Below, one piece after another: positions 26,822-58,922 of a stretch of 64,000 nt of DNA. The position numbers and the translations under genes are program-made. The notes below the pieces were generated by a model. That model was not told the DNA's origin, ran no database searches, and saw only the letters and a list, made by a program, of their open reading frames with translations. The DNA is from Bacteroidota bacterium (lineage in GTDB: Bacteria; Bacteroidota; Bacteroidia; Chitinophagales; Saprospiraceae): NCBI GenBank assembly GCA_030147525.1, contig JASBVF010000007.1:248001-312000 (forward strand). The letters run 5' to 3'. Numbering within the stretch: the first letter of the stretch is position 1; every line of letters starts with the position of its first letter.

Positions 26822-27400
26822 ATGATTCGCACTAACATCGAAAGCAAAATCGGGCAGCCGCTCACCGACAAAGAATTTGAATTTTTCATCGGGCTGATGA
26901 AGCCACAGACGATTGCGGCCAGGGAAATCCTCATCCACGAGGGCGACCGTTGCACCAATCTTTACTTTGTTGAAAAAGGGGCGCTCTACTCCTACCTGAC
27001 CGACGATGCAGGGAATGCGCACGTTATTCAGTTTGCCCTCGAAGATTACTGGATTTCGGATTTGTACAGTTTTTTTTCCGGAAAACCCGCCCTCTACACG
27101 GTGGAGGCGCTGGAGCCGTGTCAGTTGCTCGTGCTCAGTAAGGAAGGTTTTAAAACATCCTGCGACCACCTGCCCAAACTCGACCGTTTCTTCCGGGTAC
27201 TCATTCAGGCTGCCTACGTCAATGCCCAGTACCGCATTGCCCGTACCTTCAGCGCCGAGGCAGAGCAGCGCTACTGCGAACTGGTGGAAACCCACCCGGA
27301 CATCGTACAGCGGGTGCCGCAATTTCTCATTGCATCCTACCTCGGCGTCAAGCCGCAGTCGCTGAGCCGCATCCGGAAAAATATTTTTGAGCGCCGCTGA
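26822..27400 (+). CDS. Crp/Fnr-family transcriptional regulator
   Basis: The 192-residue protein has an N-terminal cyclic-nucleotide-binding-like barrel (ILIHEGDRCTNLYFVEKGAL). Its C-terminal DNA-binding part is RVPQFLIASYLGVKPQSLSR with recognition helix KPQSLSRIRKN. The same helix recurs in the regulator at 42805. No FNR-type cysteines are present. The operator half-sites TTAAC and GTGAA lie at its own promoter and at the two genes that follow, so it probably activates these. Effector is unknown. Confidence 0.93.
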   Translation: MIRTNIESKIGQPLTDKEFEFFIGLMKPQTIAAREILIHEGDRCTNLYFVEKGALYSYLTDDAGNAHVIQFALEDYWISDLYSFFSGKPALYTVEALEPCQLLVLSKEGFKTSCDHLPKLDRFFRVLIQAAYVNAQYRIARTFSAEAEQRYCELVETHPDIVQRVPQFLIASYLGVKPQSLSRIRKNIFERR

Positions 27401-27406
27401 CCGAAG

Positions 27407-27451
27407 TTAACCTGTGTGAATGAACGGCGCCTGGCGGTGCCCCCATCTTTG
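27407..27451 (+). promoter_or_regulatory. promoter with Crp/Fnr box upstream of 27511
   Basis: The box TTAAC-CTGT-GTGAA (27407-27420) is followed after 23 bases by CATCTTTG (27444-27451). It has no TTTG at -33; the box sits where an activator contacts RNA polymerase. Sequence GCTGACCGAAG just upstream is also shared with the site at 28109. Confidence 0.75.
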
Positions 27452-27510
27452 CCCTGTCAATCAGCAAAAAAAGATTGACGAAGATTTTTTCACCATAAAA
27501 TTTAACAAAG

Positions 27511-28095
27511 ATGAAAGTTCAGACTATTGCTACCGCCGCTATTTTTTCAATAGCCATCCTTTTTACTACCATTTTCGCTGCTTGCTCGCAAGGCGAAAAA
27601 ATTGACCCGCAGGAGGTGGCCAGCCTCCGTGCCCAATTGCTCGAAGTCACCAAGGCAAACGAGACAATTCAAAAGAACCTCGCCACTTTCGACACACTGG
27701 ATTTCACCGTTTTCAGCAATCAAGAGTGGACCCGCCTGCACGAGAGCCACGCCAAAGACATCAAGGTTCATTGGCCCGATGGCCACACAACTGAGGGCAT
27801 TGACGTGCACATCGAAGACTTGAAGAAGCTCTTCGTCCATGCGCCCGACACCCGCATCAAAGTGCATCCTATCCGCTTCGGTTCCGGCAATATGACCGCC
27901 GTGACGGGGGTGTTTGAAGGCACTTTTACCCAGCCCATGCCCATTGGCGACGGCAAATTCATACCGCCGACCGGCAAGGCAGTCAGTATGCCCATGGCCA
28001 CCATCGGCATCTGGAACGAGGACGGCGTAATGACGGAAGAGTACCTGTTTTGGGATAACCAAACCTACATGAATCAAATTGGTCTGGGGCAATAA
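27511..28095 (+). CDS. SnoaL/ester-cyclase-like lipoprotein
   Basis: The 194-residue product has a lipoprotein signal (MKVQTIATAAIFSIAILFTT with lipobox FAAC) and then a short helix with heptads (VASLRAQLLEVTKANETIQK). The rest is an NTF2-like fold: SNQEWTRLHESHAKDIKVHW, IHIEDLKKLF-like segment, and GIWNEDGVMTEEYLFWDNQT. This resembles SnoaL-type proteins. It should be anchored in the envelope. It lies directly downstream of the Crp gene, with its own Crp-boxed promoter. Confidence 0.85.
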   Translation: MKVQTIATAAIFSIAILFTTIFAACSQGEKIDPQEVASLRAQLLEVTKANETIQKNLATFDTLDFTVFSNQEWTRLHESHAKDIKVHWPDGHTTEGIDVHIEDLKKLFVHAPDTRIKVHPIRFGSGNMTAVTGVFEGTFTQPMPIGDGKFIPPTGKAVSMPMATIGIWNEDGVMTEEYLFWDNQTYMNQIGLGQ

Positions 28096-28108
28096 GCGCT
28101 GACCGAAG

Positions 28109-28153
28109 TTAACCTATGTGAATGACTAACGGGGGCATTGTCCCCCAACTTTG
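28109..28153 (+). promoter_or_regulatory. promoter with Crp/Fnr box upstream of 28192
   Basis: TTAAC-CTAT-GTGAA (28109-28122) is followed after 23 bases by CAACTTTG (28146-28153). The surrounding 26 bases match those at 27396-27423 with one difference, which suggests duplication of the regulatory region. Confidence 0.75.
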
Positions 28154-28191
28154 TCCCATCAATTTTTCAATCAATTTAAAATATTTCAACA

Positions 28192-29670: not shown

Positions 29671-30561
29671 ATGAAACGCAGCAAATTCTTAAAAATCATG
29701 GCAACCATACCAGTCGCTACCGCAGCAATGAAACTGAGCTGCCTGGACAAAGCCACACGTGACTTTTCCAACACCGATAAAATGCCCGTTCTCTTCCTCG
29801 GCCACGGCAGCCCGATGAACGCCATCGAGGAAAACGAATTCGTGCAGGGCTTCCGCCAGGTGGGCAAGGAAATACCCAAGCCCAACGCCATCCTCTGCAT
29901 TTCAGCACACTGGGAAACGAGAGGGACTTACGTGACTGCGATGGAAAAACCCCGCACCATCCACGACTTCGGCGGTTTTCCGCAGGCATTGTTCGACGTG
30001 CAATACCCAGCACCCGGCAATCCGGAACTGGCGAAGGAGACGCAGCAACTCGTCACCTCAACCCAGGTTGGTTTGGATGAAAAATGGGGCCTCGACCACG
30101 GCGCATGGAGCGTCATCAAACACATGTACCCGGAGGCGGACGTGCCGGTTATCCAGATGAGCCTCGACTACGGCCGCTCGCCCCAGCAGCATTACGAACT
30201 GGCAAAAGAAATTGCGGCGCTTCGCAAAAAGGGCGTGCTCATCGTCGGTAGCGGCAACATGGTCCACAATCTGCGCATGGTCGCCTGGGACAAGCTGAAC
30301 GCCGACGACTACGGATACGACTGGGCGCTGGAAGCCAGCACAAAATTCAAGCAATTCATTGCCGACGGCGACCACAAACGCCTCATCAACTACACGGCAG
30401 AAGGCCGCCCGTTCCAACTCGCTATCCCCACGCCGGAGCACTACCTGCCCTTGCTGTATACCCTCGCTTTGAAGGATGAAAAGGATGAAATCGGCTTCTT
30501 CAACGATAAGGCCGTGGGCGGCTCGCTGACGATGACGTCGGTGAAGATACAGGCGGGGTGA
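29671..30561 (+). CDS. ygiD: YgiD-type extradiol dioxygenase with signal-like N-terminus
   Basis: The chosen ATG (29671) gives a 296-residue protein. Its catalytic domain matches the DODA/LigB family (4,5-DOPA extradiol dioxygenase): FLGHGSPMNAIEENEFVQGF, ISAHWETRGTYVTA, GLDHGAWSVIKHMYPEADVP and GSGNMVHNLR, with the zinc-binding histidines in GHGSP and SAHWE. The first ~25 residues (MKRSKFLKIMATIPVATAAM, then KLSC) look like a signal or lipoprotein leader, unusual for this cytosolic family. It is the last gene of the Crp-linked group. Confidence 0.9.
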   Translation: MKRSKFLKIMATIPVATAAMKLSCLDKATRDFSNTDKMPVLFLGHGSPMNAIEENEFVQGFRQVGKEIPKPNAILCISAHWETRGTYVTAMEKPRTIHDFGGFPQALFDVQYPAPGNPELAKETQQLVTSTQVGLDEKWGLDHGAWSVIKHMYPEADVPVIQMSLDYGRSPQQHYELAKEIAALRKKGVLIVGSGNMVHNLRMVAWDKLNADDYGYDWALEASTKFKQFIADGDHKRLINYTAEGRPFQLAIPTPEHYLPLLYTLALKDEKDEIGFFNDKAVGGSLTMTSVKIQAG

Positions 30562-30568
30562 TTCGAGC

Positions 30569-30640
30569 TGTCGCCTTGTACAGCGTATTCGCCAGCGTGC
30601 TGAAGATGGGAGGGTACGGCACTCACTCCGTGCCCGTTTG
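30569..30640 (-). repeat. displaced 3'-end copy D4 of the hydroxylase gene
   Basis: Starting eight bases after the ygiD stop, this stretch matches 34020-34091 inside the 3' end of the molybdenum hydroxylase gene (33966-36230), in the same orientation. The best-kept part is GTCGCCTTGTACAGCGTATT (30570-30589). It lacks the last ~50 bases of the gene. It is the leftmost of four partial copies. Confidence 0.7.
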
Positions 30641-30675
30641 GGTAAAAACTTTAGCGGCTCTATTCACCTGCGTCC

Positions 30676-30706
30676 TTTCCAATTCCCTGCTTTTCCACTA
30701 TTTTTG
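30676..30706 (+). promoter_or_regulatory. promoter of the HNH cassette
   Basis: A perfect -7 element TATTTTTG (30699-30706) is preceded at 19 bases by TTTC. The bases after it (CCAAAAATCAACC) resemble those after the -7-like element of the WG cassette (CCAAAACAACC). Transcription would start just before the ATG at 30723. Confidence 0.6.
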
Positions 30707-30722
30707 CCAAAAATCAACCTAC

Positions 30723-31124
30723 ATGCAAAAAGTACAAGTAAAGGCGGAAGTTGACCTAAAATCCTTTTTGTCGCAGCTTGGCAATCAGGAATTGGAAGCG
30801 TTCATGCGGGAAATCCGGAGTTTGCTCAGCCGAAGGAAGGCTAAGGACTCCCATGCAAAGGAGAAGGCGCTTTTGCTTAGGCTTAATGAAGAATGCTCCT
30901 TGCCGGAATCCCATTGGGAGCGCTTTCACTTTCTAAACGAAAAAAAGGAAGTCAATTCCCTTAGTCCTTCCGAATGGGAAGAATGGTTCCAACTCGTACA
31001 GGCAGAGGAAAAGCTGCGCTTACTCCGTATTCAAATTTTGGGCGAACTGGCACAACTGCGGGGAATAACCTTGCCCGAAATGGCTGCCGAACTTGGCATC
31101 AAAGCCCCCGGCCATGCCGAGTAA
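30723..31124 (+). CDS. small helical protein paired with HNH nuclease
   Basis: The start at 30723 is supported by the promoter at 30699. The 133-residue protein is helical and charged, with no membrane segment (VDLKSFLSQLGNQELEAFMR, then EIRSLLSRRKAK), and ends TLPEMAAELGIKAPGHAE. The stop overlaps the start of the HNH gene by 11 bases. Such a pair is common in cyanobacteria and Saprospirales. By analogy to toxin-antitoxin pairs it may be the inhibitor or a DNA-binding partner, but this is inference. Confidence 0.75.
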   Translation: MQKVQVKAEVDLKSFLSQLGNQELEAFMREIRSLLSRRKAKDSHAKEKALLLRLNEECSLPESHWERFHFLNEKKEVNSLSPSEWEEWFQLVQAEEKLRLLRIQILGELAQLRGITLPEMAAELGIKAPGHAE

Positions 31125-31548
31125 TGCCCTTCCTTCCGAGCTGCGCCGTTTTGTAAAACTGAGAGCAAACAATAATTGCGAGTATTGCCGGGCACTCGGC
31201 AGTTTTTCATTCCATCCGTTTCCAGTTGACCATATCATACCTGTTTCAAAAGGAGGTAGCAGCGACCACTCCAACCTTGCCAATACTTGTCAGTTCTGTA
31301 ATGGAAGCAAATTCGACAAGACAGAAGCACCTGACCCGGTAACCGGTGAAATGGTGCCACTTTTCAACCCACGCAACCAACCTTGGAACGAACACTTTCT
31401 TTGGAGCGAAGATTTTACGAAAATCATCGGTATCACCCCCATTGGCAGGGCTACGGTCTCTTGTCTCAAAATGAATAGGGATGAAGCTATAAATCTCAGG
31501 GCAGCCCTCCATGATTTTGGCGTCCATCCTCCTGATTTGCTTTCGTGA
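31114..31548 (+). CDS. HNH endonuclease
   Basis: The 144-residue protein (ATG at 31114; a TTG at 31093 is less likely) is an HNH nuclease with a zinc-binding pair: NNCEYCRALGS, VDHIIPVSKGGSSDHSNL, TCQFCNGSK. The HNH core is the DHIIP histidine and the asparagine in DHSNL. It probably cuts DNA, but its target is unknown. It overlaps the upstream partner gene by 11 bases. The pair lies between displaced hydroxylase 3' ends (D4 and D2). Confidence 0.9.
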   Translation: MPSNALPSELRRFVKLRANNNCEYCRALGSFSFHPFPVDHIIPVSKGGSSDHSNLANTCQFCNGSKFDKTEAPDPVTGEMVPLFNPRNQPWNEHFLWSEDFTKIIGITPIGRATVSCLKMNRDEAINLRAALHDFGVHPPDLLS

Positions 31549-31575
31549 ATTCTCCGTTGTTTGTAAAATTTCCTT

Positions 31576-31650
31576 ACCCAACATCTCCCTATCCCCCAAT
31601 AAAGGCTGCTGGTAAACCCGCTTCCCCGTCACCCTGTACAGCGCGTATTC
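31576..31650 (-). repeat. displaced 3'-end copy D2
   Basis: This stretch encodes, on the minus strand, ALYRVTGKRVYQQPLLGDRE-like sequence that matches the hydroxylase end (ALYKATGKRVYQQPFLGDRA). The natural stop codon is lost. Homology ends near 31650. Confidence 0.75.
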
Positions 31651-31728
31651 AAAAAACAAGAGCGCCGGCACGGCATATAGCCACCCCAACGTCCCCAATC
31701 GTAAATCACAAAATCGTAAATCACCTCA

Positions 31729-31832
31729 CCCCAGCATCGCCCTATCCCCCAAAAACGGCTGCTGATATACCCGCTTCCCCATCGCCTTGTACAACGCATT
31801 CGCCAGCGCCCCGAAGATGGGCGGGAAGGGTG
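31729..31832 (-). repeat. displaced 3'-end copy D1
   Basis: These 104 bases match 33969-34072, the 3' end of the hydroxylase gene, at 98 of 104 positions and keep a stop codon in frame. The homology breaks off exactly at 31832, beyond which a new promoter and the PIN cassette begin. Confidence 0.85.
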
Positions 31833-31844
31833 TACATGCCGAAC

Positions 31845-31875
31845 TTTGAAATCAGGGCAGCGGTTACTACATTTG
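31845..31875 (+). promoter_or_regulatory. promoter of the PIN cassette
   Basis: TTTG (31845-31848), 19 bases and TACATTTG (31868-31875) match the Bacteroidota consensus perfectly. It drives the genes at 31894 and 32099 and lies inside the cassette, 13 bases after copy D1. Confidence 0.75.
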
Positions 31876-31893
31876 TACAAACAATTATCAGGT

Positions 31894-32109
31894 ATGAAGG
31901 AATTATTGTTAAAAATAGAAGAAAGCCGTTTCAAGCTGTTGCTGCAATTTCTCCGGACGCTTGATTACGTGACTATCGTTCAGCCACCCTCCACTTCAGA
32001 CGCAGGAGAACCGGCGCCCAGCAAGTACGACTTTTCCGACCTTGCCGGTAAGCTGGAATGGAAAGGGGATGCACTTGCTCAACAACGGCTTTTGAGGGAT
32101 GAATGGTAG
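31894..32109 (+). CDS. antitoxin-like protein paired with PIN toxin
   Basis: The start at 31894 fits the promoter at 31868. The 71-residue protein begins MKELLLKIEESRFKLLLQFL and ends DALAQQRLLRDEW, a charged helical sequence typical of antitoxins. It overlaps the PIN gene by 11 bases. No DNA-binding fold is clear. Confidence 0.75.
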   Translation: MKELLLKIEESRFKLLLQFLRTLDYVTIVQPPSTSDAGEPAPSKYDFSDLAGKLEWKGDALAQQRLLRDEW

Positions 32110-32473
32110 GTTTCTTCTCGATACCAATGCCGTGATTGGCCTGCTCGGTGGGCATACCGGGTTAGTGCAGATGTTGCAAGGCGCCGCATGGGTAGGCATT
32201 CCCGTCATCGTTGAACTCGAATTTCTTTCCTTTCCAAACCTTTCTGCTTCGGATGCTGCTTTGTTTGCCCAATTCAAGAACCGGGTAGAAACGACCAGTC
32301 TCGATGCAGCCAACACAGTACTTTTACAACAAATCATCCAAATACGGCAAGGGTACAATCTCAAATTGCCGGATGCTATCATCGCTGCAACGGCGCTTCA
32401 ACAGCAAGCTACTTTGTTGAGCAACGATGCTATGTTTAAAAGGGTTACTGGTTTGAGTTTGCAAACTTTTTGA
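32099..32473 (+). CDS. VapC-type PIN-domain toxin
   Basis: The 124-residue protein shows the PIN pattern with its acidic residues: FLLDTNAVIGLLGG (first D), IVELEFLSFPN (E), LPDAIIAATALQQQATLLSN (D) and DAMFKRV (D). PIN toxins of this type usually cut RNA. It overlaps its antitoxin gene by 11 bases. It lies between displaced copies D1 and D3. Confidence 0.92.
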   Translation: MNGRFLLDTNAVIGLLGGHTGLVQMLQGAAWVGIPVIVELEFLSFPNLSASDAALFAQFKNRVETTSLDAANTVLLQQIIQIRQGYNLKLPDAIIAATALQQQATLLSNDAMFKRVTGLSLQTF

Positions 32474-32493
32474 AAGAAATCCTCAACAAATTT

Positions 32494-32585
32494 CCCTCCC
32501 AGCATCGCCCTATCCCCAAAAACGACTGCTGACACACCCGCTTTCCCATCGTCTTGTTTAGCGCATTCATCAATGCCCCGATAGG
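32494..32585 (-). repeat. displaced 3'-end copy D3
   Basis: These bases match the hydroxylase 3' end in the same orientation (CCCAGCATCGCCCTATCCCC is identical to part of 33969-33989 apart from one C). They are more decayed than D1. Homology ends near 32585, then the WG cassette begins. Confidence 0.75.
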
Positions 32586-32678
32586 TTTCATTTTATTTTG
32601 CCAAAACAACCACTTAACGCCAATCGCAATACTTATGAGGTGCTAATTTTGTATTCTAAACCTTTCAATGAATTCACA

Positions 32679-33881
32679 ATGCGGACAAAATTCCTGATAA
32701 TTGCAATATGCGGCTTGACTTATTTGGCAAATGCACAACCAGACCGCAAGAGTATGGTGCTTGACCAATTTCGCTTCATGTTCGGATATGGTTCAAGAAG
32801 TGGTAATGATGGCTTGACTTTCGGGTACGTGGATAAAAATTTGAATTACATCAGTGAGCCCACCTTTGAAGATGGCAGTGATTTTTTTGGTGATTATGCT
32901 AACGTAATAAAAGATGGTGTTTGTGGGTTGATGGACAAATCGGGTAAAACGACTTTCTTTCCTCAGTACGAAATTGTTTACAAGTATTACTCCGCATATT
33001 TATTGGTAAAAAGAGATGGTAAGTATGGGTGCATCCGATATGATGGCACTGAAGTTATTCCAATTATTTACGACCAAATAGGGTTCTTCAGCAGTGGCCA
33101 CGTACCTGTAAAGTATGGTGAAAAATGGCAGATACTGGATTCCTTAGGCCGGTCTGTTGTTGATTCCAATATTGTACTGGGTTATAATTCAGTTCACGAT
33201 TTCTATGTGGAATTCGATGGGTATTATTCAGACACGACAAGGAATGCAAAGAAACCTAAAAAAGGGATTTTGCACCTGTCAAGAGGGGTGGTCGTTCCTC
33301 CTATTTATGATGAATTGGCAGGCTGGTTTTCAGATGGCCTATGTTGGGCAAAACGCAATGGAAAAAAAGGCTTTGTTTCTGATGAGGGCATAGAAAAGAT
33401 ACCTTTAGAATATGATGAGTTGGCCTTGGAATTCGAGGAAGGCTTGGTAGCCGCCCACAAAGGCGACATGTGGGGTTTCATAGATAAACAAAACAAAGTA
33501 GTAATTCCTTTTGAGTATGAGAGAGCATACAAATTCTCTGAAGGTTTAGCAGCAGTGAAAAAAAATGGCAAAATTGGCTTTATCGACAAAAGCAACAATT
33601 TAATAATCCCTTTTTTATTTGACCCTGACTGGGGTTACCAGTTCAACGAAGGGTTGTCAACTTTTAAGCTCCATTACAAGTTTGGCTTTATCAACAAAAA
33701 AGGAGAAGTTGTAATTGCACCCACGTTTGCTTCTGCATTAAATTTCGAGGATGGGATGGCTCGTGTAACACTTCCAAACAAGAAAGCTTGTTTCATCAAT
33801 AAAAAAGGCAAGTTATCATCTGAATTTGTTGAAGCATGGAACTTTCGAAGTGGAGCAGCAAGAGTAGCCATATCAAAATAA
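32679..33881 (+). CDS. exported WG-repeat protein
   Basis: The start at 32679 gives a signal peptide (MRTKFLIIAICGLTYLANAQ); an upstream ATG at 32598 would bury it. The 400-residue product contains eight or so WG-type repeats with the pattern (Y/F)xxGL-x-x-A-x-x-x-G-K-x-G-(F/C)-I-(D/N)-x-x-x-x-(V/I)-I-P, for example NGKIGFIDKSNNLIIPFLFD. WG_beta_rep proteins are often exported or linked to defence. The gene is AT-rich against its surroundings, which suggests transfer. It lies between copy D3 and the intact hydroxylase gene. Confidence 0.88.
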   Translation: MRTKFLIIAICGLTYLANAQPDRKSMVLDQFRFMFGYGSRSGNDGLTFGYVDKNLNYISEPTFEDGSDFFGDYANVIKDGVCGLMDKSGKTTFFPQYEIVYKYYSAYLLVKRDGKYGCIRYDGTEVIPIIYDQIGFFSSGHVPVKYGEKWQILDSLGRSVVDSNIVLGYNSVHDFYVEFDGYYSDTTRNAKKPKKGILHLSRGVVVPPIYDELAGWFSDGLCWAKRNGKKGFVSDEGIEKIPLEYDELALEFEEGLVAAHKGDMWGFIDKQNKVVIPFEYERAYKFSEGLAAVKKNGKIGFIDKSNNLIIPFLFDPDWGYQFNEGLSTFKLHYKFGFINKKGEVVIAPTFASALNFEDGMARVTLPNKKACFINKKGKLSSEFVEAWNFRSGAARVAISK

Positions 33882-33965: not shown

Positions 33966-36230
33966 CTACCCCAGCATCGCCCTATCCCCCAAAAACGGCT
34001 GCTGATATACCCGCTTACCCGTCGCCTTGTAAAGCGCATTCGCCAGCGCCCCGAAAATGGGCGGGAACGGTGGCTCGCCCATGCCCGTCGGGGCGATTTC
34101 GTTTTTCACAAAATGCACATCAATTGCCTTCGGCGCTTCGCTCATGCGAATCATGCGGTACTTGTCGAAGTTCGTCTTTTCGGCAGCGCCGGCTTTGAAG
34201 GTCATTTCACCGTAAAGCGCATTGCCGATGCCGTCCGTAACAGCGCCCTCGGTCATGTTGGTGGCAGCGTCAGGGTTTACGACGATGCCGCAGTCGATGG
34301 CGCTGGTGACCTTCTGTACGACGGGCTTGCCGTTTTCAATCGTCAAATCCAGCACGTGGGCGGCGTAGCTGGCATGGCAGAAATAAGCGGCCACGCCACG
34401 GGAAACGCCAGCGGGCGGGTTGGCCCAGTTGGATTTTTCACGAACCAACTCCAGCACCCCTGCGTAGCGGGCAGCGTCGTAGTCGTTCCTGTCACCTACC
34501 GGATTTTCCTGGGCACGTTTCAACAGTTCCAAACGGAACTCGATGGGGTCTTTTCCCATGGCCTCCGCCAGTTCGTCGAGGAAGGACTGCTCGGCCCCGG
34601 CGATGAAGTTCGATCTCGGTGCACGGAAGGCCCCGATGGTGATGTTCGATTCAGCCGACCACTCCTCTGCGAGGTAGTTGTCTATGGCCCCTGCGGGGAA
34701 ACGGTCAGCGGCAAGCGGGGTCTCCGGTATACCGCCAGCCTTTACGTGGAAAGCGATGAGGTTGTTGTTTTCATCCAAAGCGGCCCGGTAAGTGGCATGG
34801 TAGGCGGGGCGATAAATGCCGTTGGTCATGTCGTCCTCACGGGTGTACATCAGCTTCACCGGGGCGTTTACTTTTTGTGAAATGAGCGCCGCCTCCACCA
34901 TGTAGTGCGAGTAGGCCCTGCGACCGAAACCGCCGCCCATGCGGGTCATTTCAATGTCGATATTTTCTGCGGGAATGCCAAGGCGTGCCGACAGGGTCGG
35001 TTCGATGAAACCGGGCGCCTGCAACGGTCCGGCCACTTTTACCTTGTCGCCCTTCACATCGGCGAAAAAGTTCATCGGCTCCATGCAGTTGTGGGCGAGG
35101 TGCGGGCAGGAATAGCTCCGCTCGATAACCTTGGCCGCCTTTTTGAAAGCTGCTTCCGGGTCGCCGTTCCGGCGGACGACCTTGCCGGGTTTGGCGGCCA
35201 GTGCCTCCATTTTAGCGAAGTGGTCGGTGCTGTTTTCCAGCCCGGCGGGAACACTGACTTTCCGGGTGTTACCCCAGGCGCTCACCGTTTCGGTATAGGT
35301 GGAAAATGGCTCCCATTCTACCCTCAGCGCTTTTTTGGCCTGCATCACCTCCCAGGTGGAATCGCCGACGATGGCAACCAGTTCCGGGAAGGCATTGGTG
35401 TCAAATCCGGCTTTTTCGTAGCCGTCGTTATAAGTTTTTATAGAAAAAACGTCTTTAATGCCGGGCATGGCCTTGGCCGCCGAACCGTCGAAAGATTTCA
35501 GCTTCATTCCAAATGCGGGCGGTTGGGCAATCATGGCGATGAGCATGCCGTCCACTTTGTAGTCCAGGCCGAACATGGGCTTGCCGGTCACGATTTTTTT
35601 GCCGTCCACGTTCTTCTGCGAGTGGCCGATGATTTTGAAATCCTTCACGTCCTTCAGAACGGGCTTCTCCGGCACGGGGATGTTGGCGGCGGCGGAAGCC
35701 ATTTCACCGTAGCCAGCTTTTTTGCCGCTGTTTTTATGAAATAAAACACCCGCTTCGGTGGTGATTTCGTCCATCGGCACTTGCCATGCCTGTGCCGCCG
35801 CTTCCCGCAGCATGTGCCGGGCAGCAGCGCCCGCATTGCGCAGCGGCTCCCATTTCGACATGATGCCCCGGCTGCCCCCGGTGAACTGCCCGAACATGGC
35901 ATTCGGGAATTTTTCGGGGTCATGCTTGGCCATTTCCACCACGACATTTTTCCAGTCGCAGTCGAGCTCTTCGGCCACAATCATGGGCATGGAGGTCATC
36001 ACATTCTGCCCGAATTCTGGGTTGGGCGTGAAGATAGTGACGACGCCGTTGTCGCCGATTTTCAGGTAGGCGTTGATGTCGAACCATTCCTTGGGCATGG
36101 TGAGTGCCGCATCGCCGGAGACGTTTTTGCAGCCTGTGAGCCAGTTGATGCCGATAACCATGCCGCCGCCTGCGAGGATGGAATTGCGGAGAAAGGTGCG
36201 ACGATCGAGGGTTGATTTTATTGCTGTCAT
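33966..36230 (-). CDS. exported molybdenum hydroxylase large subunit (IorB-like)
   Basis: The 754-residue product has a twin-arginine signal (LDRRTFLRNSILAGGGMVIG, then INWLTGC) and the xanthine dehydrogenase/aldehyde oxidase molybdopterin-binding pattern: GGGFGRRAYSHYMVEAALIS, IGAFRAPRSNFIAGAEQSFL and the active-site glutamate in GMGEPPFPPIFGALA. It is the IorB-type, partner of a 2Fe-2S subunit (38624). It oxidises aromatic N-heterocycles or aldehydes in the periplasm with electrons passed to cytochromes; substrate unknown. It is followed by displaced copies of its own 3' end and a run of cassettes. Confidence 0.95.
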   Translation of the reverse strand: MTAIKSTLDRRTFLRNSILAGGGMVIGINWLTGCKNVSGDAALTMPKEWFDINAYLKIGDNGVVTIFTPNPEFGQNVMTSMPMIVAEELDCDWKNVVVEMAKHDPEKFPNAMFGQFTGGSRGIMSKWEPLRNAGAAARHMLREAAAQAWQVPMDEITTEAGVLFHKNSGKKAGYGEMASAAANIPVPEKPVLKDVKDFKIIGHSQKNVDGKKIVTGKPMFGLDYKVDGMLIAMIAQPPAFGMKLKSFDGSAAKAMPGIKDVFSIKTYNDGYEKAGFDTNAFPELVAIVGDSTWEVMQAKKALRVEWEPFSTYTETVSAWGNTRKVSVPAGLENSTDHFAKMEALAAKPGKVVRRNGDPEAAFKKAAKVIERSYSCPHLAHNCMEPMNFFADVKGDKVKVAGPLQAPGFIEPTLSARLGIPAENIDIEMTRMGGGFGRRAYSHYMVEAALISQKVNAPVKLMYTREDDMTNGIYRPAYHATYRAALDENNNLIAFHVKAGGIPETPLAADRFPAGAIDNYLAEEWSAESNITIGAFRAPRSNFIAGAEQSFLDELAEAMGKDPIEFRLELLKRAQENPVGDRNDYDAARYAGVLELVREKSNWANPPAGVSRGVAAYFCHASYAAHVLDLTIENGKPVVQKVTSAIDCGIVVNPDAATNMTEGAVTDGIGNALYGEMTFKAGAAEKTNFDKYRMIRMSEAPKAIDVHFVKNEIAPTGMGEPPFPPIFGALANALYKATGKRVYQQPFLGDRAMLG

Positions 36231-41245: not shown

Positions 41246-41872
41246 CTAAAAATTAAATCCGAAATGCAGCCCGGGTTCCCATCCAAAGTATTTAGGCCAT
41301 TTATTTTCTACTAATTTGAAGGATTCGGGTACATTAGTTCTTATGGGCCAATGAGTGAATCCAATAGATGGCTCAAAAAAGAAACGGTTTTTAAAAAACT
41401 TAAGCTGGTAACCCAAGCGGTAAGTCAGATATAACGTGTATCCATTTCCAATCTTTTTATTCTCCCCATCTGTATATTTTTCAAAAGCATTCAAGGCATG
41501 AACGGATGTATAGACTCCTTTCCACCAAAAACGCTGGTATGCCAATGTAGGTGCAAGTATGCGTGCATGTCCGGGATAATTTAATCCCGGTGCATCAAAG
41601 GATGGCCCCCAGGGGATACCTAATGGCCAGGAATAAACGGATTTTTTAAACTCAAAGGAAACAGCATCTTTAGGTGTTATCCTGTATCCAATATTTAATT
41701 GGAAAAACTTGGGTGGATTGGGGTCATCAGGAATGAAATTCCCCAACAACAAGAGTGTACTTCCAATAAAATACTTCTTATAAGTACTGTCCTGTTTGGC
41801 ACTTTGAGCTTTAAGTTGAAGCGTGCTTGTCATCATTAAGACAAGCGCAATGAATAAGATGTTCTTTTGCAT
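41246..41872 (-). CDS. outer-membrane barrel protein, paralogue 1
   Basis: The 208-residue product has a signal peptide (MQKNILFIALVLMMTSTLQL, cleavage after KAQ). Its body has barrel-like strands (LNIGYRITPKDAVSFEFKKS, TLAYQRFWWKGVYTSVHALN) and ends GLHFGFNF. It is about half identical to the product at 42094 and was probably made by duplication. Its promoter carries the same Crp/Fnr box. Function is unknown. Confidence 0.85.
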   Translation of the reverse strand: MQKNILFIALVLMMTSTLQLKAQSAKQDSTYKKYFIGSTLLLLGNFIPDDPNPPKFFQLNIGYRITPKDAVSFEFKKSVYSWPLGIPWGPSFDAPGLNYPGHARILAPTLAYQRFWWKGVYTSVHALNAFEKYTDGENKKIGNGYTLYLTYRLGYQLKFFKNRFFFEPSIGFTHWPIRTNVPESFKLVENKWPKYFGWEPGLHFGFNF

Positions 41873-41901
41873 TCTTTTACTTTTATTGTTAAATGATGCT
41901 G

Positions 41902-41946
41902 CAAAATTAGATTGGCGATATGCGACAACTCGTTCACTTTAGTTAA
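41902..41946 (-). promoter_or_regulatory. promoter with Crp/Fnr box for 41246
   Basis: On the minus strand TTAAC-TAAA-GTGAA (41946-41933) is followed after 23 bases by a perfect -7 element TAATTTTG (41909-41902). It matches the boxes near 26.7-28.1 kb in sequence and spacing. Confidence 0.8.
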
Positions 41947-42093
41947 GAAATACGATTCAGCTTTTTTTTAGGAATTCTTGCTCTAAGCCTGTTAAATGAT
42001 GGAGATTTGATGCCTGATTAATTTACAAACGGGTATAGTGGAACTCATGGAATATTGGCTGTAAATAACAGCTTTCACCTAACCATTATAAGT

Positions 42094-42720
42094 TTAAAAA
42101 TTAAACCCAAAATGAAAGCCCGGTTCTCCTAATATGAATTTCGGCCATTTATCGTCCAACTGTTTAAATCCATCAGGCATTGTTGTATGATAGGCACGGT
42201 GGGTAATTGCAACGGATGTCTGAATAAAAAACCGGTCCTTGAAAAGTTTGATATGATAACCGCAACGGTAAGTATTGAAAATCTGAAATCCATTGTCAAT
42301 TTTATTGCCGTCATCATTCGCAAAAATTTGCCAGGCAGGCATTACGTTAAGTTCGGCATATAAACCTTGCCAAAAAAACCGTTGGTAAGCCACTGATAAG
42401 CCATATTCACGAATATACCCCGGGAATTTCTCTTCCTGCGTTCCATATGATTTGTTGAAAAACGGGTGGATTCCATTCGGCCAGGCATATTTCCAGGTTT
42501 TTGGTTCCAGGGTTATAACGTCTTTCCCGGTAATTCGATAGCCTATATTGAGTTGAACGAAATTGGGGGGATTGACTTTGGATAAATTACCTAATAAAAA
42601 CACTGAGCTGCCAACGAACCTCCGTCTGAACGAGCTGTCTGATTTATCATATTGAGCTTTAAGTTGCATGGTGCCTGTCATCATTAAGACAAGACCAATG
42701 AATAAAATACTCTTTTGCAT
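42094..42720 (-). CDS. outer-membrane barrel protein, paralogue 2
   Basis: The 208-residue product has the same layout as the 41246 protein: signal peptide (MQKSILFIGLVLMMTGTMQL), LNIGYRITGKDVITLEPKTW, VAYQRFFWQGLYAELNVMPA, end GFHFGFNF. The two genes lie in tandem with the same Crp-boxed promoter type, and the Crp gene at 42805 lies directly upstream. Ligand is unknown. Confidence 0.85.
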   Translation of the reverse strand: MQKSILFIGLVLMMTGTMQLKAQYDKSDSSFRRRFVGSSVFLLGNLSKVNPPNFVQLNIGYRITGKDVITLEPKTWKYAWPNGIHPFFNKSYGTQEEKFPGYIREYGLSVAYQRFFWQGLYAELNVMPAWQIFANDDGNKIDNGFQIFNTYRCGYHIKLFKDRFFIQTSVAITHRAYHTTMPDGFKQLDDKWPKFILGEPGFHFGFNF

Positions 42721-42749
42721 GTCATTTCATTTTATGTTAAACGATAATG

Positions 42750-42794
42750 CAAAAGTGGATTGGCGGGAGACAATAACTCGATCACTTAAGTTAA
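42750..42794 (-). promoter_or_regulatory. promoter with Crp/Fnr box for 42094
   Basis: On the minus strand TTAAC-TTAA-GTGAT (42794-42781) is followed after 23 bases by CACTTTTG (42757-42750). The bases between box and -7 (CGAGTT...CCAATC) are also similar to those of the 41902 promoter. Confidence 0.75.
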
Positions 42795-42804
42795 GAAATG
42801 CGTT

Positions 42805-43383
42805 TCAGCTCTTTTTTTCAAGAATTCTTGCTCTTAGCCTGCTTAAAGATTGAGGCTTGATACCAAGATAGCTCGCTAATTGGTGTTGTGGAACACGTTG
42901 AATAAGGTCCGGTCTTTTTTCTACTAAATTAAGGTATCGTTGTTCAGGTGAAGAAGTCTTAAACTCGTCAAAGTCTATTCGTTGTTTGGCTAAAAGTTCT
43001 TCGGACAATATCCTGCACATGGTTTCAAACTTCGGAAATTTTTGGTTTAATTCTGCTTCCATATCAGAGTTTGAAATCAGGAGGATACAGTCTTCTATAC
43101 AACTTACATAGTATTCAGACGGAGTTTTGCTGATTACACAAGGGGGTGTCAAAGCTTCCATTTCTGTGTAGAAAGCGGTAGTTTTTTCTTCTCCGTCTAA
43201 CACATAATAGGTGCGAATACAGCCTTTCAGTACAAAGTAGCTCTCTTTCGATTTTTGTCCTTCTTTGAGTAAAGTCGTCCCTTTTTTTACCGAGCGGAAT
43301 ATGTCTAAAGAAACGATTGCGTTCTTCTCATCTTCTGTCAGAGAAACGTATTTTGATATAAAGTCAAATAGTGTGTCTTGCAT
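42805..43383 (-). CDS. Crp/Fnr-family transcriptional regulator, paralogue
   Basis: The 192-residue protein has the cyclic-nucleotide-like domain (LLKEGQKSKESYFVLKGCIR) and the HTH RVPQHQLASYLGIKPQSLSR. The recognition helix is nearly identical to that of the 26822 regulator (KPQSLSRLR against KPQSLSRIR). It probably recognises the same box and may control the two barrels downstream and perhaps also the 26-29 kb genes. No box is seen at its own promoter. Confidence 0.93.
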   Translation of the reverse strand: MQDTLFDFISKYVSLTEDEKNAIVSLDIFRSVKKGTTLLKEGQKSKESYFVLKGCIRTYYVLDGEEKTTAFYTEMEALTPPCVISKTPSEYYVSCIEDCILLISNSDMEAELNQKFPKFETMCRILSEELLAKQRIDFDEFKTSSPEQRYLNLVEKRPDLIQRVPQHQLASYLGIKPQSLSRLRARILEKKS

Positions 43384-52926: not shown

Positions 52927-53805
52927 ATGAAAAATGCAACTACCCGTCCACTTTCCGATTTCAACAGCGAACTAAAACTCAAAGGCTTCAACGTCTTTCA
53001 AATCGAAGAAGACGCCACCGCTACCCGCATTTACAGCCGGAAGGATTTTTATAAAATCTGCCTGACCACCGGCAAGAGCATCATCCACTACGCTGACCGG
53101 AGCTATGACATGGACGGCACGATTTTGTTTTTCGGCAACCCACATATCCCGTATTCCTGGGAGACGATTTCAACCAGATACGTCGGTTATACCGTCCTTT
53201 TTTCGGAAGAATTCATTCAACTGTCCGATCGCTCCGAGAGCCTGTTGCAGTCGCCCTTGTTTAAAATTGGCGGCACGCCCGTGTTGAATATTTCGGAAAA
53301 GCAACGGGAGTTTTTGAACGGCATTTTTCAGAAAATGATAGAGGAGCAGCAGGCAGATTACGCCTACAAGGCCGACCTCATCCGCAACTACATCCACCTG
53401 ATCATCCATGAGGCGCTGAAGATGCAGCCTTCCGAAAACTACACGCAGGACAAAAACGCCGCCGCCCGCATCACCCGTGTTTTCATGGAACTGCTGGAAC
53501 GGCAGTTCCCGGTGGAAAGCCCCGAACGTCCACTGCAACTGAAAACCGCCAAGGATTATGCGGACAACCTGGCCGTCCATGTCAACCACCTCAACCGCTC
53601 GCTGAAAGAAGTCACCGGCAAATCCACCACCACGCTCATCAATGAACGAATCGCCGGCGAAGCCAAGGCCATCCTCCTGCACACGGACTGGAACGTGACG
53701 GATGTAGCCTATGCGCTCGGTTTTGAGTACCCCACCTATTTCAATAATTTCTTCAAAAAAATGACGGGGACGAACCCCAAGTCGGTGCGGATGCAGGAGG
53801 CTTAA
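52927..53805 (+). CDS. AraC-family transcriptional regulator
   Basis: The 292-residue protein has an N-terminal cupin-like sensor (FYKICLTTGKSIIHYADRSY, LFFGNPHIPYSWE) and a C-terminal AraC DNA-binding domain (LAVHVNHLNRSLKEVTGKST, then WNVTDVAYALGFEYPTYFNN). It is a paralogue of the 58023 product, with the same HVNHLNR and NNFFKKM elements. These two are the best candidates to bind the 21-base direct repeats seen at five nearby promoters. It is followed by a divergent-free acetyltransferase gene with such a box. Confidence 0.94.
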   Translation: MKNATTRPLSDFNSELKLKGFNVFQIEEDATATRIYSRKDFYKICLTTGKSIIHYADRSYDMDGTILFFGNPHIPYSWETISTRYVGYTVLFSEEFIQLSDRSESLLQSPLFKIGGTPVLNISEKQREFLNGIFQKMIEEQQADYAYKADLIRNYIHLIIHEALKMQPSENYTQDKNAAARITRVFMELLERQFPVESPERPLQLKTAKDYADNLAVHVNHLNRSLKEVTGKSTTTLINERIAGEAKAILLHTDWNVTDVAYALGFEYPTYFNNFFKKMTGTNPKSVRMQEA

Positions 53806-55627: not shown

Positions 55628-56821
55628 ATGGAAAAACAAGGCAATCAGCAGCCAACCGGGACAACCCGGAGAAAATTCATTCAACAATCTGCTGTGATGG
55701 GCACGGGCATGTTGCTCGCCAACCCGGCACAGTCATTTTCAAACTTTCATCCAATCGACATGACAAAAAATATCAAATCAAAAGGTTACGCCGCTAAGGA
55801 TGCATCAGGAAAACTCAGCCCCTGGACCTTCGAGCGCAGGCCAGTGGGCGACAACGACGTTTTGATTGACATAAAATTCGCCAGCATCTGCCATTCCGAC
55901 ATTCACCAGATGAAAGGCGACTGGGGCCCGCAGCAATATCCGCAGGTGCCCGGCCATGAAATCGTCGGCGTCGTTGCAGCCGTCGGAAAGAACGTCACGA
56001 AGTTCAAAATCGGCGACCGGGCGGGCGTCGGCTGCATGGTGGACAGTTGCCTGGAGTGCGACAGTTGCAAACACGGCGAAGAGCATTACTGCGACCGGGG
56101 CGAGACGCTTTTCACCTACGGTTATCCCGATAAAAAATCCCCCACCGGCATCACGCAGGGCGGCTACGCCAACAACATCGTCGTGCGGGACCACTTTGCG
56201 GTGCACATCCCCGAGCACATTACTTTTGAGGAAGCGGCGCCGCTGCTCTGTGCAGGCATCACCACCTATTCGCCCCTGATGAACGCCAATTTTAAAATTG
56301 GCGACAAAGTCGGGGTGGCAGGCATCGGCGGCTTGGGCCACATGGCTGTGAAACTGGCCGTCTCCAAAGGTGCAGAAGTTTATGCCTTCACCACCTCGCC
56401 GGACAAGGTGAAGGACATCCTTTCCTTTGGCGCCAAAGAGGCCATCGTGGTGGACGACCTCGCCAAGCTGGCCCCGTACAAAGCCAGGCTGGACTACATG
56501 ATTTCCACCATTCCCGTGCAGTTCGACGTGGCGGCTTACACCTCGGTGGTAAAACCTTACGGAACCTTCACGCAGGTGGGCATGCCCGTGGGTTTTGAGC
56601 TTTCGCTCAGCAACATCGGCCTGTCCATTTCCAGGGTTAACTTCAACGCCTCTCTCATCGGCGGCATCCCGGAAACGCAGGAGGTGATTCATTACTGTGC
56701 AGACAATAACGTGCGCCCGCAAATTCAAATCATCAAAGCGGAGGAGATAAACGATGCCTGGGAGAAGGTGCTGAGCAAGCAGGCCCGGTACCGGTACGTG
56801 ATTGATGCGGGGAGTTTTTAG
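55628..56821 (+). CDS. exported zinc-dependent alcohol dehydrogenase
   Basis: The first ~45 residues hold a twin-arginine-like leader (TRRKFIQQSAVMGTGMLLAN), unusual for this family. The enzyme (about 345 residues) is a YahK/CAD-type medium-chain dehydrogenase: ICHSDIHQMKGDWGPQQYPQ, GHEIVG, the structural zinc cysteines CLECDSCKHGEEHYC and the Rossmann motif GIGGLGHMAVK. It should act on alcohols or aldehydes with NADP(H). If the leader is functional it acts outside the cytosol, where NADP(H) is scarce. A start at the second ATG (residue ~44) would give a cytosolic enzyme. Confidence 0.92.
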   Translation: MEKQGNQQPTGTTRRKFIQQSAVMGTGMLLANPAQSFSNFHPIDMTKNIKSKGYAAKDASGKLSPWTFERRPVGDNDVLIDIKFASICHSDIHQMKGDWGPQQYPQVPGHEIVGVVAAVGKNVTKFKIGDRAGVGCMVDSCLECDSCKHGEEHYCDRGETLFTYGYPDKKSPTGITQGGYANNIVVRDHFAVHIPEHITFEEAAPLLCAGITTYSPLMNANFKIGDKVGVAGIGGLGHMAVKLAVSKGAEVYAFTTSPDKVKDILSFGAKEAIVVDDLAKLAPYKARLDYMISTIPVQFDVAAYTSVVKPYGTFTQVGMPVGFELSLSNIGLSISRVNFNASLIGGIPETQEVIHYCADNNVRPQIQIIKAEEINDAWEKVLSKQARYRYVIDAGSF

Positions 56822-56862: not shown

Positions 56863-56910
56863 TCACCCGTTCCTAAATCTCTCCGGGCTTGTCCCTACCT
56901 TTTTTGAGAA
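56863..56910 (-). repeat. displaced 3'-end copy of the AraC gene 58023
   Basis: These bases match 58023-58070, the 3' end of the AraC gene, in the same orientation (about 88% over 45 bases). Translated on the minus strand they read KKVGTSPERFRNG and then a stop, like KKMVGTSPGRFRNG in the gene. It lies immediately before the YhcG gene, which separates it from the intact copy. Confidence 0.8.
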
Positions 56911-56926
56911 AATTGAATGAGCAGGG

Positions 56927-57967
56927 TTACCTGTTTCGATGTTCAATCAGTTTTTTGGAAGCAACAAAAAACTGGTGGAGCTTTCGTTTCAAGAGGTCTT
57001 TGGGCAGGAGTTCGGTGATGTAGCTGGCGACCCTGACGTTTGTGTTGTCTAATTGCAGCAGTTCAATCTGCTCATGATTGCCTTCGGCGCACAAAATCAA
57101 CCCGATGGGCGGTTCTTCACCGGGTTCGGTTTCGTATTTTTCCAGCCAGCGGAGGTAAAGTTCCATCTGGCTTTTGTAACCCGCTTCGAACTTCCCGATT
57201 TTCAGGTCTATGGCAATCAGTCTTTTCAGTTTCCGGTGGTAAAACAGCAGGTCGAGCGAATAGTCTTTCCCGTCAATGACCATCCGCTTCTGCCGCTCAA
57301 GAAATGCAAAGCCACGACCCAATTCGAGCAGGAATTGTTCAATTTTGGCGAGGATAGCCTGTTCGAGATCTTTTTCGAGGTAAGTGTCTTTCAAGCCCAA
57401 AAAATCAAGCACATAAGGGTCTTTGAACACGAGGTCGGGACTGAGTTTGTCCTCCTCTTTCAGGGCTTGCAGTTCCAGTTTGGCAAGTTCTTCCGGCTTT
57501 TGTGAAATGGCGGTTCGTTCGAAGAGCATGGAGCGGATTTTATCACGCAGGGTGCGTACCGACCAGTTTTCAATACGGCAGAGTTGGGCGTAAAACTCCA
57601 CTTGCAGTTCGTCATTCAAATAAATTATTTCTTTGAAATGCGACCAACTCAATTGTCTCCACAGTGTAGAGACAATTTCCATATCGGGGAAAACTTCTGC
57701 AAATTTGACGAAATGCCGGAGCTGCTTCTCGCTCCAACCTTTCCCGAATTCTTCGGTCAATTGTCGTGACAGTGTAGAGACAATTTGTTTTCCGTATTCT
57801 GCCCGTTCGTTTTGCAGGACTTCCTCATTGATGCGCCTGCCAATATTCCAGTACAACATCGTAACTGTAATATTTACAGTGCGGCTGACTGCCTGGCGGG
57901 CATCTTCAATCAATTGCCTGATGTCGGTAAACAACTCGTGGTTGGGTTGGGAGGGTTCGTTTTTCAT
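56927..57967 (-). CDS. YhcG-family PD-(D/E)XK nuclease (DUF1016)
   Basis: The start at 57967 gives a 346-residue protein. Its N-terminal half is the DUF1016 helical region (RQLIEDARQAVSRTVNITVT, then MLYWNIGRRINEE), and its C-terminal half is the nuclease fold with DLLFYHRKLKRLIAIDLKIG (catalytic D and DxK) and ILCAEGNHEQIELL. Inside it, VSTLSRQL and VSTLWRQL recur 40 residues apart, an expansion by short duplication. It probably cuts DNA, often in mobile or defence contexts. The promoter appears to lie inside the insert. Its position between two copies of an AraC 3' end marks it as an inserted cassette. Confidence 0.93.
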   Translation of the reverse strand: MKNEPSQPNHELFTDIRQLIEDARQAVSRTVNITVTMLYWNIGRRINEEVLQNERAEYGKQIVSTLSRQLTEEFGKGWSEKQLRHFVKFAEVFPDMEIVSTLWRQLSWSHFKEIIYLNDELQVEFYAQLCRIENWSVRTLRDKIRSMLFERTAISQKPEELAKLELQALKEEDKLSPDLVFKDPYVLDFLGLKDTYLEKDLEQAILAKIEQFLLELGRGFAFLERQKRMVIDGKDYSLDLLFYHRKLKRLIAIDLKIGKFEAGYKSQMELYLRWLEKYETEPGEEPPIGLILCAEGNHEQIELLQLDNTNVRVASYITELLPKDLLKRKLHQFFVASKKLIEHRNR

Positions 57968-58022
57968 GGCATGTTTTAGTTGAAAATGAATCAACCTCGA
58001 AAGATAAAAACATCTTTCAATC

Positions 58023-58922
58023 TCACCCATTCCTAAACCTCCCCGGGCTTGTCCCCACCATTTTTTTGAAAAAATTATTAAAATGCGTCACCTCTGAAAA
58101 CCCCAGCGACCAGGCAATTTCCGACACGTTCCACTGGCTGTGTTTCAGCATGATTTTCGATTCCTGCAGGATGCGCTCGCCGATGAGTTGCGAGGTCGTT
58201 TTGCCGGCGGTTTCCTTTATGGCCCGGTTCAGGTGGTTGACGTGTACGTTGAGTTGCTGCGCAAAGTCAGAAGGGCTGCGCAGGCTCACCTGCGGGTGAT
58301 TTTCTTCGATGGGGAACTGCCGCTCCAGCAACTCCATGAATATCGTTGAAATGCGCTGCGAGGCGTTCATCGGCTGTTTGTCAAACTTCGAACTGGGTTG
58401 CAACTTCATGGCAAAATGCAACAGTTCGAACACCAGGTTGCGCAGCATATCGTACTTGTGGATGTAGTCTGAATTGATTTCCTCGTACATCCGTTCGTAG
58501 ATGCGCTTCACGGAGAGCACCTGCTCGTCCGACAGTTCGAACACATGCTCGCCCGTGGGGTGGAAGACCGAATACTGCCGGATGTCGCCAAACTGGTGGA
58601 AAAACTGCTGGTTGAAAATGCAGTACACACCCTCCCGGATATTCTCCAGATGGAGGCAGCGGTAAGGAATCAGCGGGTTGGAGAAAAACAGCGCCTGCTT
58701 TTCAATATTGACCACTTTGTCGGCATACTGCATCTCAATATCACCCTCCACCAGCATAATTTTATAAAAATCCCGCCGGCGGTAGGGCAGCGTACGGGTC
58801 TTGCCTGGTTCCACCGGTTCGTGTTGAAACAGGTTGAAATGGCCGATTTCGTTTCGCAGATTCTCGGGTATCCAGGTGGCTTTCCTTTTGTAAAATTCTT
58901 CTAATGTTTCAGGTTTTTTCAT
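58023..58922 (-). CDS. AraC-family transcriptional regulator, paralogue
   Basis: The 299-residue protein has an N-terminal sensor (FYKIMLVEGDIEMQYADKVV, ALFFSNPLIPYRCLHLE) and an AraC DNA-binding domain (LNVHVNHLNRAIKETAGKTT, then WNVSEIAWSLGFSEVTHFNN). It is paralogous to the 52927 protein and probably recognises the same direct repeat. Its 3' end is intact but copied once more at 56863, with a YhcG gene between. It lies near the outer-membrane barrel gene at 58980 that carries the box. Confidence 0.94.
   Translation of the reverse strand: MKKPETLEEFYKRKATWIPENLRNEIGHFNLFQHEPVEPGKTRTLPYRRRDFYKIMLVEGDIEMQYADKVVNIEKQALFFSNPLIPYRCLHLENIREGVYCIFNQQFFHQFGDIRQYSVFHPTGEHVFELSDEQVLSVKRIYERMYEEINSDYIHKYDMLRNLVFELLHFAMKLQPSSKFDKQPMNASQRISTIFMELLERQFPIEENHPQVSLRSPSDFAQQLNVHVNHLNRAIKETAGKTTSQLIGERILQESKIMLKHSQWNVSEIAWSLGFSEVTHFNNFFKKMVGTSPGRFRNG

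Follow-up and report, generated by a model that had tools for sequence, protein, structure and literature searches.

Sequential displacement and arrays of orphan immunity genes have been described at the type VI secretion loci of Vibrio cholerae (Kirchberger 2017, PMC5361080). The authors propose homology-facilitated illegitimate recombination and liken the arrays to integrons (PMC5361080). Another related situation is that of restriction-modification genes. In the relevant passages of PMC3874152 and PMC3031569, which cite Nobusato 2000 and Furuta 2010 on long target duplication, these genes are said to be inserted with long target duplications of variable length, about 100 bp.

The locus considered here lies in a 64,000-nucleotide stretch of a Bacteroidota genome, below called the window. 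It resembles the type VI secretion arrays and the orphan 3' ends of Rhs genes in having a homologous upstream anchor, new cargo adjoining it, and an old end moved downstream together with the old neighbour, repeatedly. However, those systems have a toxin as host gene, and its end is exchanged for one with a new function, whereas here the host is an ordinary metabolic or regulatory gene that keeps an equivalent end, and a candidate defence gene serves as cargo. The restriction-modification insertions, as far as the cited passages describe them, are similar in that transposase-free defence-type genes are surrounded by long variable direct repeats. There the repeats are described as target duplications, whereas the copies in our case differ mostly at synonymous sites, which points to imported ends. 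Integron cassettes are also single-gene units with related repeats between them and a fixed anchor gene, but here the repeats consist of the coding end of the adjoining host gene, and the inserts showed no integrase. Judging by the synonymous changes, the present case would combine the layout of the restriction-modification duplications with a history closer to type VI secretion displacement.

The repeat layout is real and recurrent. The main novelty lies in the evidence that orthologous ends were imported in many of these apparent duplications; it is also new that copied ends frame candidate defence genes across Bacteroidota. This bears on the question of how transposase-free single-gene defence systems move and accumulate in islands.

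The araC-yhcG locus

The locus contains the following features.

58023..58922, minus strand: AraC-family regulator, 299 aa, the host gene with an intact 3' end
58023..58072, minus strand: proximal repeat copy, the last 50 nt of the AraC gene including TGA (86% identity; 87% over 54 nt)
57968..58022, minus strand: leader of about 55 nt, from the AraC stop to the likely YhcG start
56927..57967, minus strand: YhcG, the inserted cargo, 346 aa, DUF1016_N and YhcG_C PDDEXK nuclease, PADLOC candidate PDC-S02
56863..56912, minus strand: distal repeat copy, non-coding, 13 nt past the YhcG stop; it has an in-frame TGA and lacks 2 nt
55628..56821, plus strand: zinc alcohol dehydrogenase, convergent, flanking the insert on its outer side; its synteny with AraC is kept in genome G004

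The initial annotation had stated that the 3' end of the AraC gene recurs at 56863 in the same orientation with a stop codon in frame, and that YhcG alone lies between the copies. Both statements are confirmed. The direct repeat D1 (56863-56912 and 58023-58072, same strand) is 50 nt long and 86% identical without gaps; if a 2-nt gap is allowed, it extends to 54 nt at 87%, and the similarity in the distal copy may reach about position 56920. Both copies are closed by an in-frame TGA. Downstream of the AraC gene, the best match to its end reaches 64.4 bits, compared with at most 25.6 in 300 dinucleotide shuffles, and the repeat occurs exactly twice in the 7.08-Mb assembly with up to three mismatches. 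These scores and the count of two rule out a chance repeat. In the distal copy, which is untranslated, the ATG codon preceding VGTSP is reduced to G. This copy is dead, because two bases of the codon are lost.

YhcG is the sole plausible gene between the copies. It belongs to the DUF1016 nuclease family, scoring 157 bits with PF17761 and 159 bits with PF06250, both above the curated cut-offs. The PDC-S02 model scores 430 bits; PDC is a candidate label, and the protein is a candidate anti-phage factor. The start of the longest open reading frame, 58030, would make the gene run over the AraC stop; translation probably starts at 57967, about 55 nt from AraC. The closest relative of this YhcG, 75% identical, is found in genome G007 at an unrelated locus. 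A hairpin of about 10 bp (57990-58022) starts right after the AraC stop, where the YhcG insert has its left end.

The AraC end in related genomes

The AraC orthologues within the genus are 72-85% identical. The closest of them (G007, G013, G012, G011, G004) and 72 homologues from named Bacteroidota genomes were checked for a downstream copy of the gene end. Besides the window, it was found in G012 alone (a Bacteroidetes MAG, JACRAN01). The initial annotation had allowed that the duplicated end might be common to relatives devoid of YhcG, but such relatives are without it. A common terminator or other dispersed repeat is also ruled out, with two copies in the assembly and one other carrier among the 72 homologues.

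Two genes come after AraC in G012, first one for a regulator of the Crp/Fnr type and next one for a TonB receptor, both identified from sequence rather than by a family scan; beyond them the AraC end recurs over 128 nt at 85%. In many relatives, from Chryseobacterium to Saprospiraceae, an aldo-keto reductase gene is situated approximately 100 nt past AraC. In G012 it is situated at that distance past the distal copy. The 150-nt flank of this copy matches the region following AraC in G013 (E 2e-10) and G002 (1e-13). Since both the copy and its flank match the junction between the AraC end and aldo-keto reductase in the relatives, the distal copy is the ancestral AraC end, the gene itself now continuing into new DNA. 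Thus the AraC gene of G012 has its old 3' end and old neighbour displaced downstream of new cargo, and G013, G002 and others, in which this site is empty, have the repeat in a single copy. The ancestral arrangement is thereby established in the relatives of G012.

The empty-site comparison proposed initially therefore succeeds for AraC in G012. It does not for the window itself, where the flank to the left of 56863 has no counterpart in the relatives compared. G004 retains both AraC and the alcohol dehydrogenase; there a cupin gene is located between them and there is no copy of the AraC end. A donor with AraC directly followed by YhcG was not found, and the informative-site test for a breakpoint within the window AraC gave p = 0.4-1. 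In the tree of the 3' third of AraC, the sequence from the window's own genome (G000) groups with that of G012.

The aldehyde oxidase array

The initial annotation had reported a companion array at 30.5-34 kb. This array is real and consists of copies of an aldehyde oxidase end with the genes between them.

33966..36230, minus strand: aldehyde oxidase, the companion host gene, whose last approximately 105 nt recur downstream
30558..33881, no strand assigned: cargo of the companion array
31575-31679, 31728-31832, 32495-32599 and, partial, 30570-30619: copies of the aldehyde oxidase end
31093-31548: HNH gene, cargo
32099-32473: PIN toxin with an upstream partner, cargo
32598-33881: WG-repeat protein, cargo

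The 3' end of this gene is a hot spot of arrays in four species, with RhuM, Gabija-like and toxin genes. Beyond the window, such loci are present in G001, G012 and G007 (L213, L214, L215, L216). The array in G001 has at least four gene-end copies, with matches to GajA/GajB (Gabija), an M78 peptidase with DUF4411, RhuM, and AraC with SDR; as it spans a contig break, we infer that two contigs are joined here. RhuM sits between aldehyde oxidase ends in G001, G012 and G007, so that gene end and RhuM form a recurring unit in these species, and the DNA right behind the stop codon is alike in all three. The left end of the repeat is almost constant across several cassettes and species. The copies of G000 cluster together and not with those of other species. 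The tree of the aldehyde oxidase ends as a whole has mixed grouping, its 108 columns being too few for resolution. The cargo at one and the same gene end varies: YhcG or Crp/TonB at AraC; RhuM, Gabija-like, PIN or HNH genes at aldehyde oxidase.

Repeats flanking other YhcG genes

Direct repeats within 350 nt of the gene flank 16 of the 83 YhcG genes from the host family, compared with 12 of 598 other genes at the same loci (Fisher p = 5.5e-9). In a stricter subset, 10 of the 83 are flanked (p = 8e-5). Inverted repeats flank just two of the 83. Phylum-wide, direct repeats flank 5 of 30 YhcG genes. The repeats are long, same-strand and variable in length, with copies ranging from approximately 50 to 220 nt.

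Codirectional genes with repeats at their 3' ends are CDGSH in G143 (where the pair is 98% identical), GDH in G201, FKBP in G190, G394 and G395, ddl in G002 (with a PIN gene next to it), and two genes of 1050 aa (G011) and 485 aa (G012). At two loci, L109 and L161, the repeats are intergenic. A mirror case was observed at L104 (oriented positions 1257-2673): here a stretch of about 107 nt close to the 5' end of a 678-aa gene has a 94% copy upstream, with an Abi-like gene between the two. A candidate empty site for the G143 case in its relative G156 is not clean: YhcG is absent, but so is the next gene.

The initial proposal was a general process of 3'-end insertion for nuclease or toxin genes. 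Recurrence is supported, with independent cases of the layout in several species (at AraC, aldehyde oxidase, ddl, GDH, FKBP, CDGSH and others). However, the proposal is too narrow, because there are also 5' (L104) and intergenic sites and non-nuclease cargo, such as the Crp/Fnr and TonB genes.

In three species of one genus (L392, L393, L394), YhcG or a similar insert is located between the end of the FKBP gene and its copy. In G394, and likewise in G395, the two FKBP copies are nearly identical to each other and extend past the stop codon, whereas they differ from one species to another, a pattern suggesting homogenisation or repeated insertion.

In 486 kb from two contigs of the window's own genome, clear end-anchored downstream copies of 3' ends are restricted to the aldehyde oxidase array, AraC and a tandem duplication, and therefore the process is rare per gene. 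In the tandem duplication (window positions 41246-43383), a 208-aa gene is present twice, each time together with the end of the 192-aa gene upstream of it (its 3' end); the duplicates are 80-87% alike over the shared stretches. In addition, a 67-nt direct repeat at 77% (27395-27461 and 28097-28163) flanks a 194-aa gene at 27511-28095, and its copy at 27395 starts at the end of the preceding gene. This may be a third case in the window.

Synonymous changes in gene-end pairs

A distal copy that arose by duplication at the moment of insertion should decay neutrally. The pooled 11 gene-end pairs, which are few and partly dependent (AraC and aldehyde oxidase being represented twice each), contain 69 synonymous and 46 nonsynonymous changed codons, whereas 29 synonymous ones are expected under neutrality (p = 5e-15). 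Duplication followed by decay would yield approximately 40% synonymous changes by our own derivation, in which the intact gene is allowed synonymous changes only; this expectation is rejected as well (p = 1e-5). Strongly synonymous pairs are FKBP in G190 (9 of 9), GDH in G201 (5 of 6) and the pair in G143 (2 of 2). The bias is weak or absent, in synonymous versus nonsynonymous counts, for AraC (7 vs 9) and aldehyde oxidase (4 vs 5) in G012 and for ddl (3 vs 6). In the window AraC pair, which is too short to decide alone, three of the five changed codons are synonymous. The copies often end in their own, differing in-frame stop codons.

Because of the synonymous excess and the differing in-frame stops, most pairs have the appearance of orthologous ends with a history of divergence in different genomes before they came together. 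For most of the copies, import of an orthologous end is thereby favoured over duplication in the course of insertion. Gene conversion may also play a part, as may local events that happened repeatedly.

Synonymous sites in copied ends can indicate whether a copy was imported or duplicated. The copied ends form a readable scar that marks insertions, suggests their order and shows the old copy, and the signature permits a genome-wide re-test of the long target duplications around restriction and toxin genes.

Possible mechanisms

The best explanation, which we hold to be probably correct, is homology-anchored capture of foreign DNA with displacement of the old gene end. The incoming DNA would originate from a relative and carry the cargo, here YhcG, behind a 3' portion of the same host gene. 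It would pair with the resident gene via the homologous end, and the resident gene would then read into the imported 3' end and the cargo. The far-side join would fall inside the last 50-220 nt of the resident gene, and the resident end would be moved downstream as a dead copy. Either homology-facilitated illegitimate recombination or a Campbell-type insertion of a circle with one gene end and cargo could produce the observed layout. As the host gene stays intact, the event would be tolerated and repeatable, and its repetition would create arrays of defence genes spaced by gene-end copies. For the window case we infer this origin, together with the donor, the form of the DNA and the joining step. 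Import is suggested by the ancestral end in G012, the synonymous excess, the copies' own stops, the varied cargo, the RhuM unit and the enrichment around YhcG. On the other hand, the clustering of the aldehyde oxidase copies in G000 and the near-identical FKBP copies in G394 and G395 speak against it, as they fit local duplication or gene conversion. The weak or absent bias of both G012 pairs and of ddl, the shortness of the window pair, the lack of a detectable breakpoint in its AraC and the failure to find a donor likewise count against import.

A weaker candidate, though the most serious alternative, is long target duplication, for which the passages cited above on restriction-modification genes (PMC3874152, PMC3031569) provide a precedent. 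YhcG or its carrier would enter a widely staggered break, repair would copy about 50-200 nt of the target on both sides, and the survivors would be those where the duplicated segment spans a gene end or is intergenic, leaving the host intact. It would account for the length, the variability and the common orientation of the repeats that surround single genes of defence type, whether at 3' ends, at a 5' end or between genes, and the 98% identical G143 pair and the within-genome clustering of the G000 aldehyde oxidase copies agree with it as well. However, the pooled synonymous excess rejects simple duplication and decay, and many pairs diverge within approximately 10 nt of the stop codon, which a random stagger should often pass; L322, G394 and G201 are exceptions to this stop-proximal loss of similarity. 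A local segmental or tandem duplication of the AraC end, or a remnant of a second AraC gene, with YhcG having come separately, is improbable. There is indeed an AraC paralogue 5 kb away (52987-53790), and the same window contains the true tandem duplication at 41246-43383. However, the paralogue is only about 74% identical at the DNA level in the shared stretch, whereas identity between the copy and the AraC end reaches 86-87%, which makes it unlikely that the copy is a relic of the paralogue. Moreover, YhcG occupies the entire interval, the layout is repeated beside numerous unrelated genes with cargo that is strongly biased, no relative was found that has YhcG here but no second AraC end, and the copies always go with cargo.

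Integration of a site-specific element is known to renew gene ends: prophage e14 at icd supplies a replacement end for its target. If a recombinase acting in trans integrated elements of this kind at 3' ends, the cargo would arrive with a slightly different end restoring the host gene, and the nearly constant left end of the aldehyde oxidase repeat over several cassettes and species would be natural. We regard this as very improbable, since the 1.1-kb insert has no integrase and nothing except YhcG between the repeats, the target genes are unrelated with no shared core apparent by inspection, and the copy length varies from about 50 to 220 nt. Equally speculative is the idea that solitary defence genes (YhcG, RhuM) are themselves the movers, their proteins promoting insertion beside gene ends, perhaps via the gene-specific palindrome within their own reading frames. 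If this were true, the defence islands of Bacteroidota would be built by a cassette system that is anchored on host gene ends and has no classical recombinase.

Palindromes within YhcG and RhuM genes

The window YhcG gene contains a near-perfect in-frame palindrome, AATTGTCTCcACAGTGTaGAGACAATT, at 57651-57677 and 57759-57785. Within the host genome it is present inside this YhcG gene only. At the corresponding position, in one 5-column bin of the alignment, palindromes with a stem of at least 10 were found in 34 of the 77 YhcG genes of the family, and in none of the synonymous-codon shuffles. The arms have gene-specific sequences with retained self-complementarity. The palindromes are not associated with flanking repeats (p = 1), and we found nothing in the literature evidently describing palindromes in connection with DUF1016 or RhuM. 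Phylum-wide, 17 of 30 YhcG genes have a stem of at least 11, nearly all at codons 97-115. RhuM genes (L303-L323) have an in-frame palindrome of their own, of the type CAGTT-N5-AAATT-N5-AACTG, at codons ~64-105 in 15 of 24 genes and in none of the shuffled sequences.
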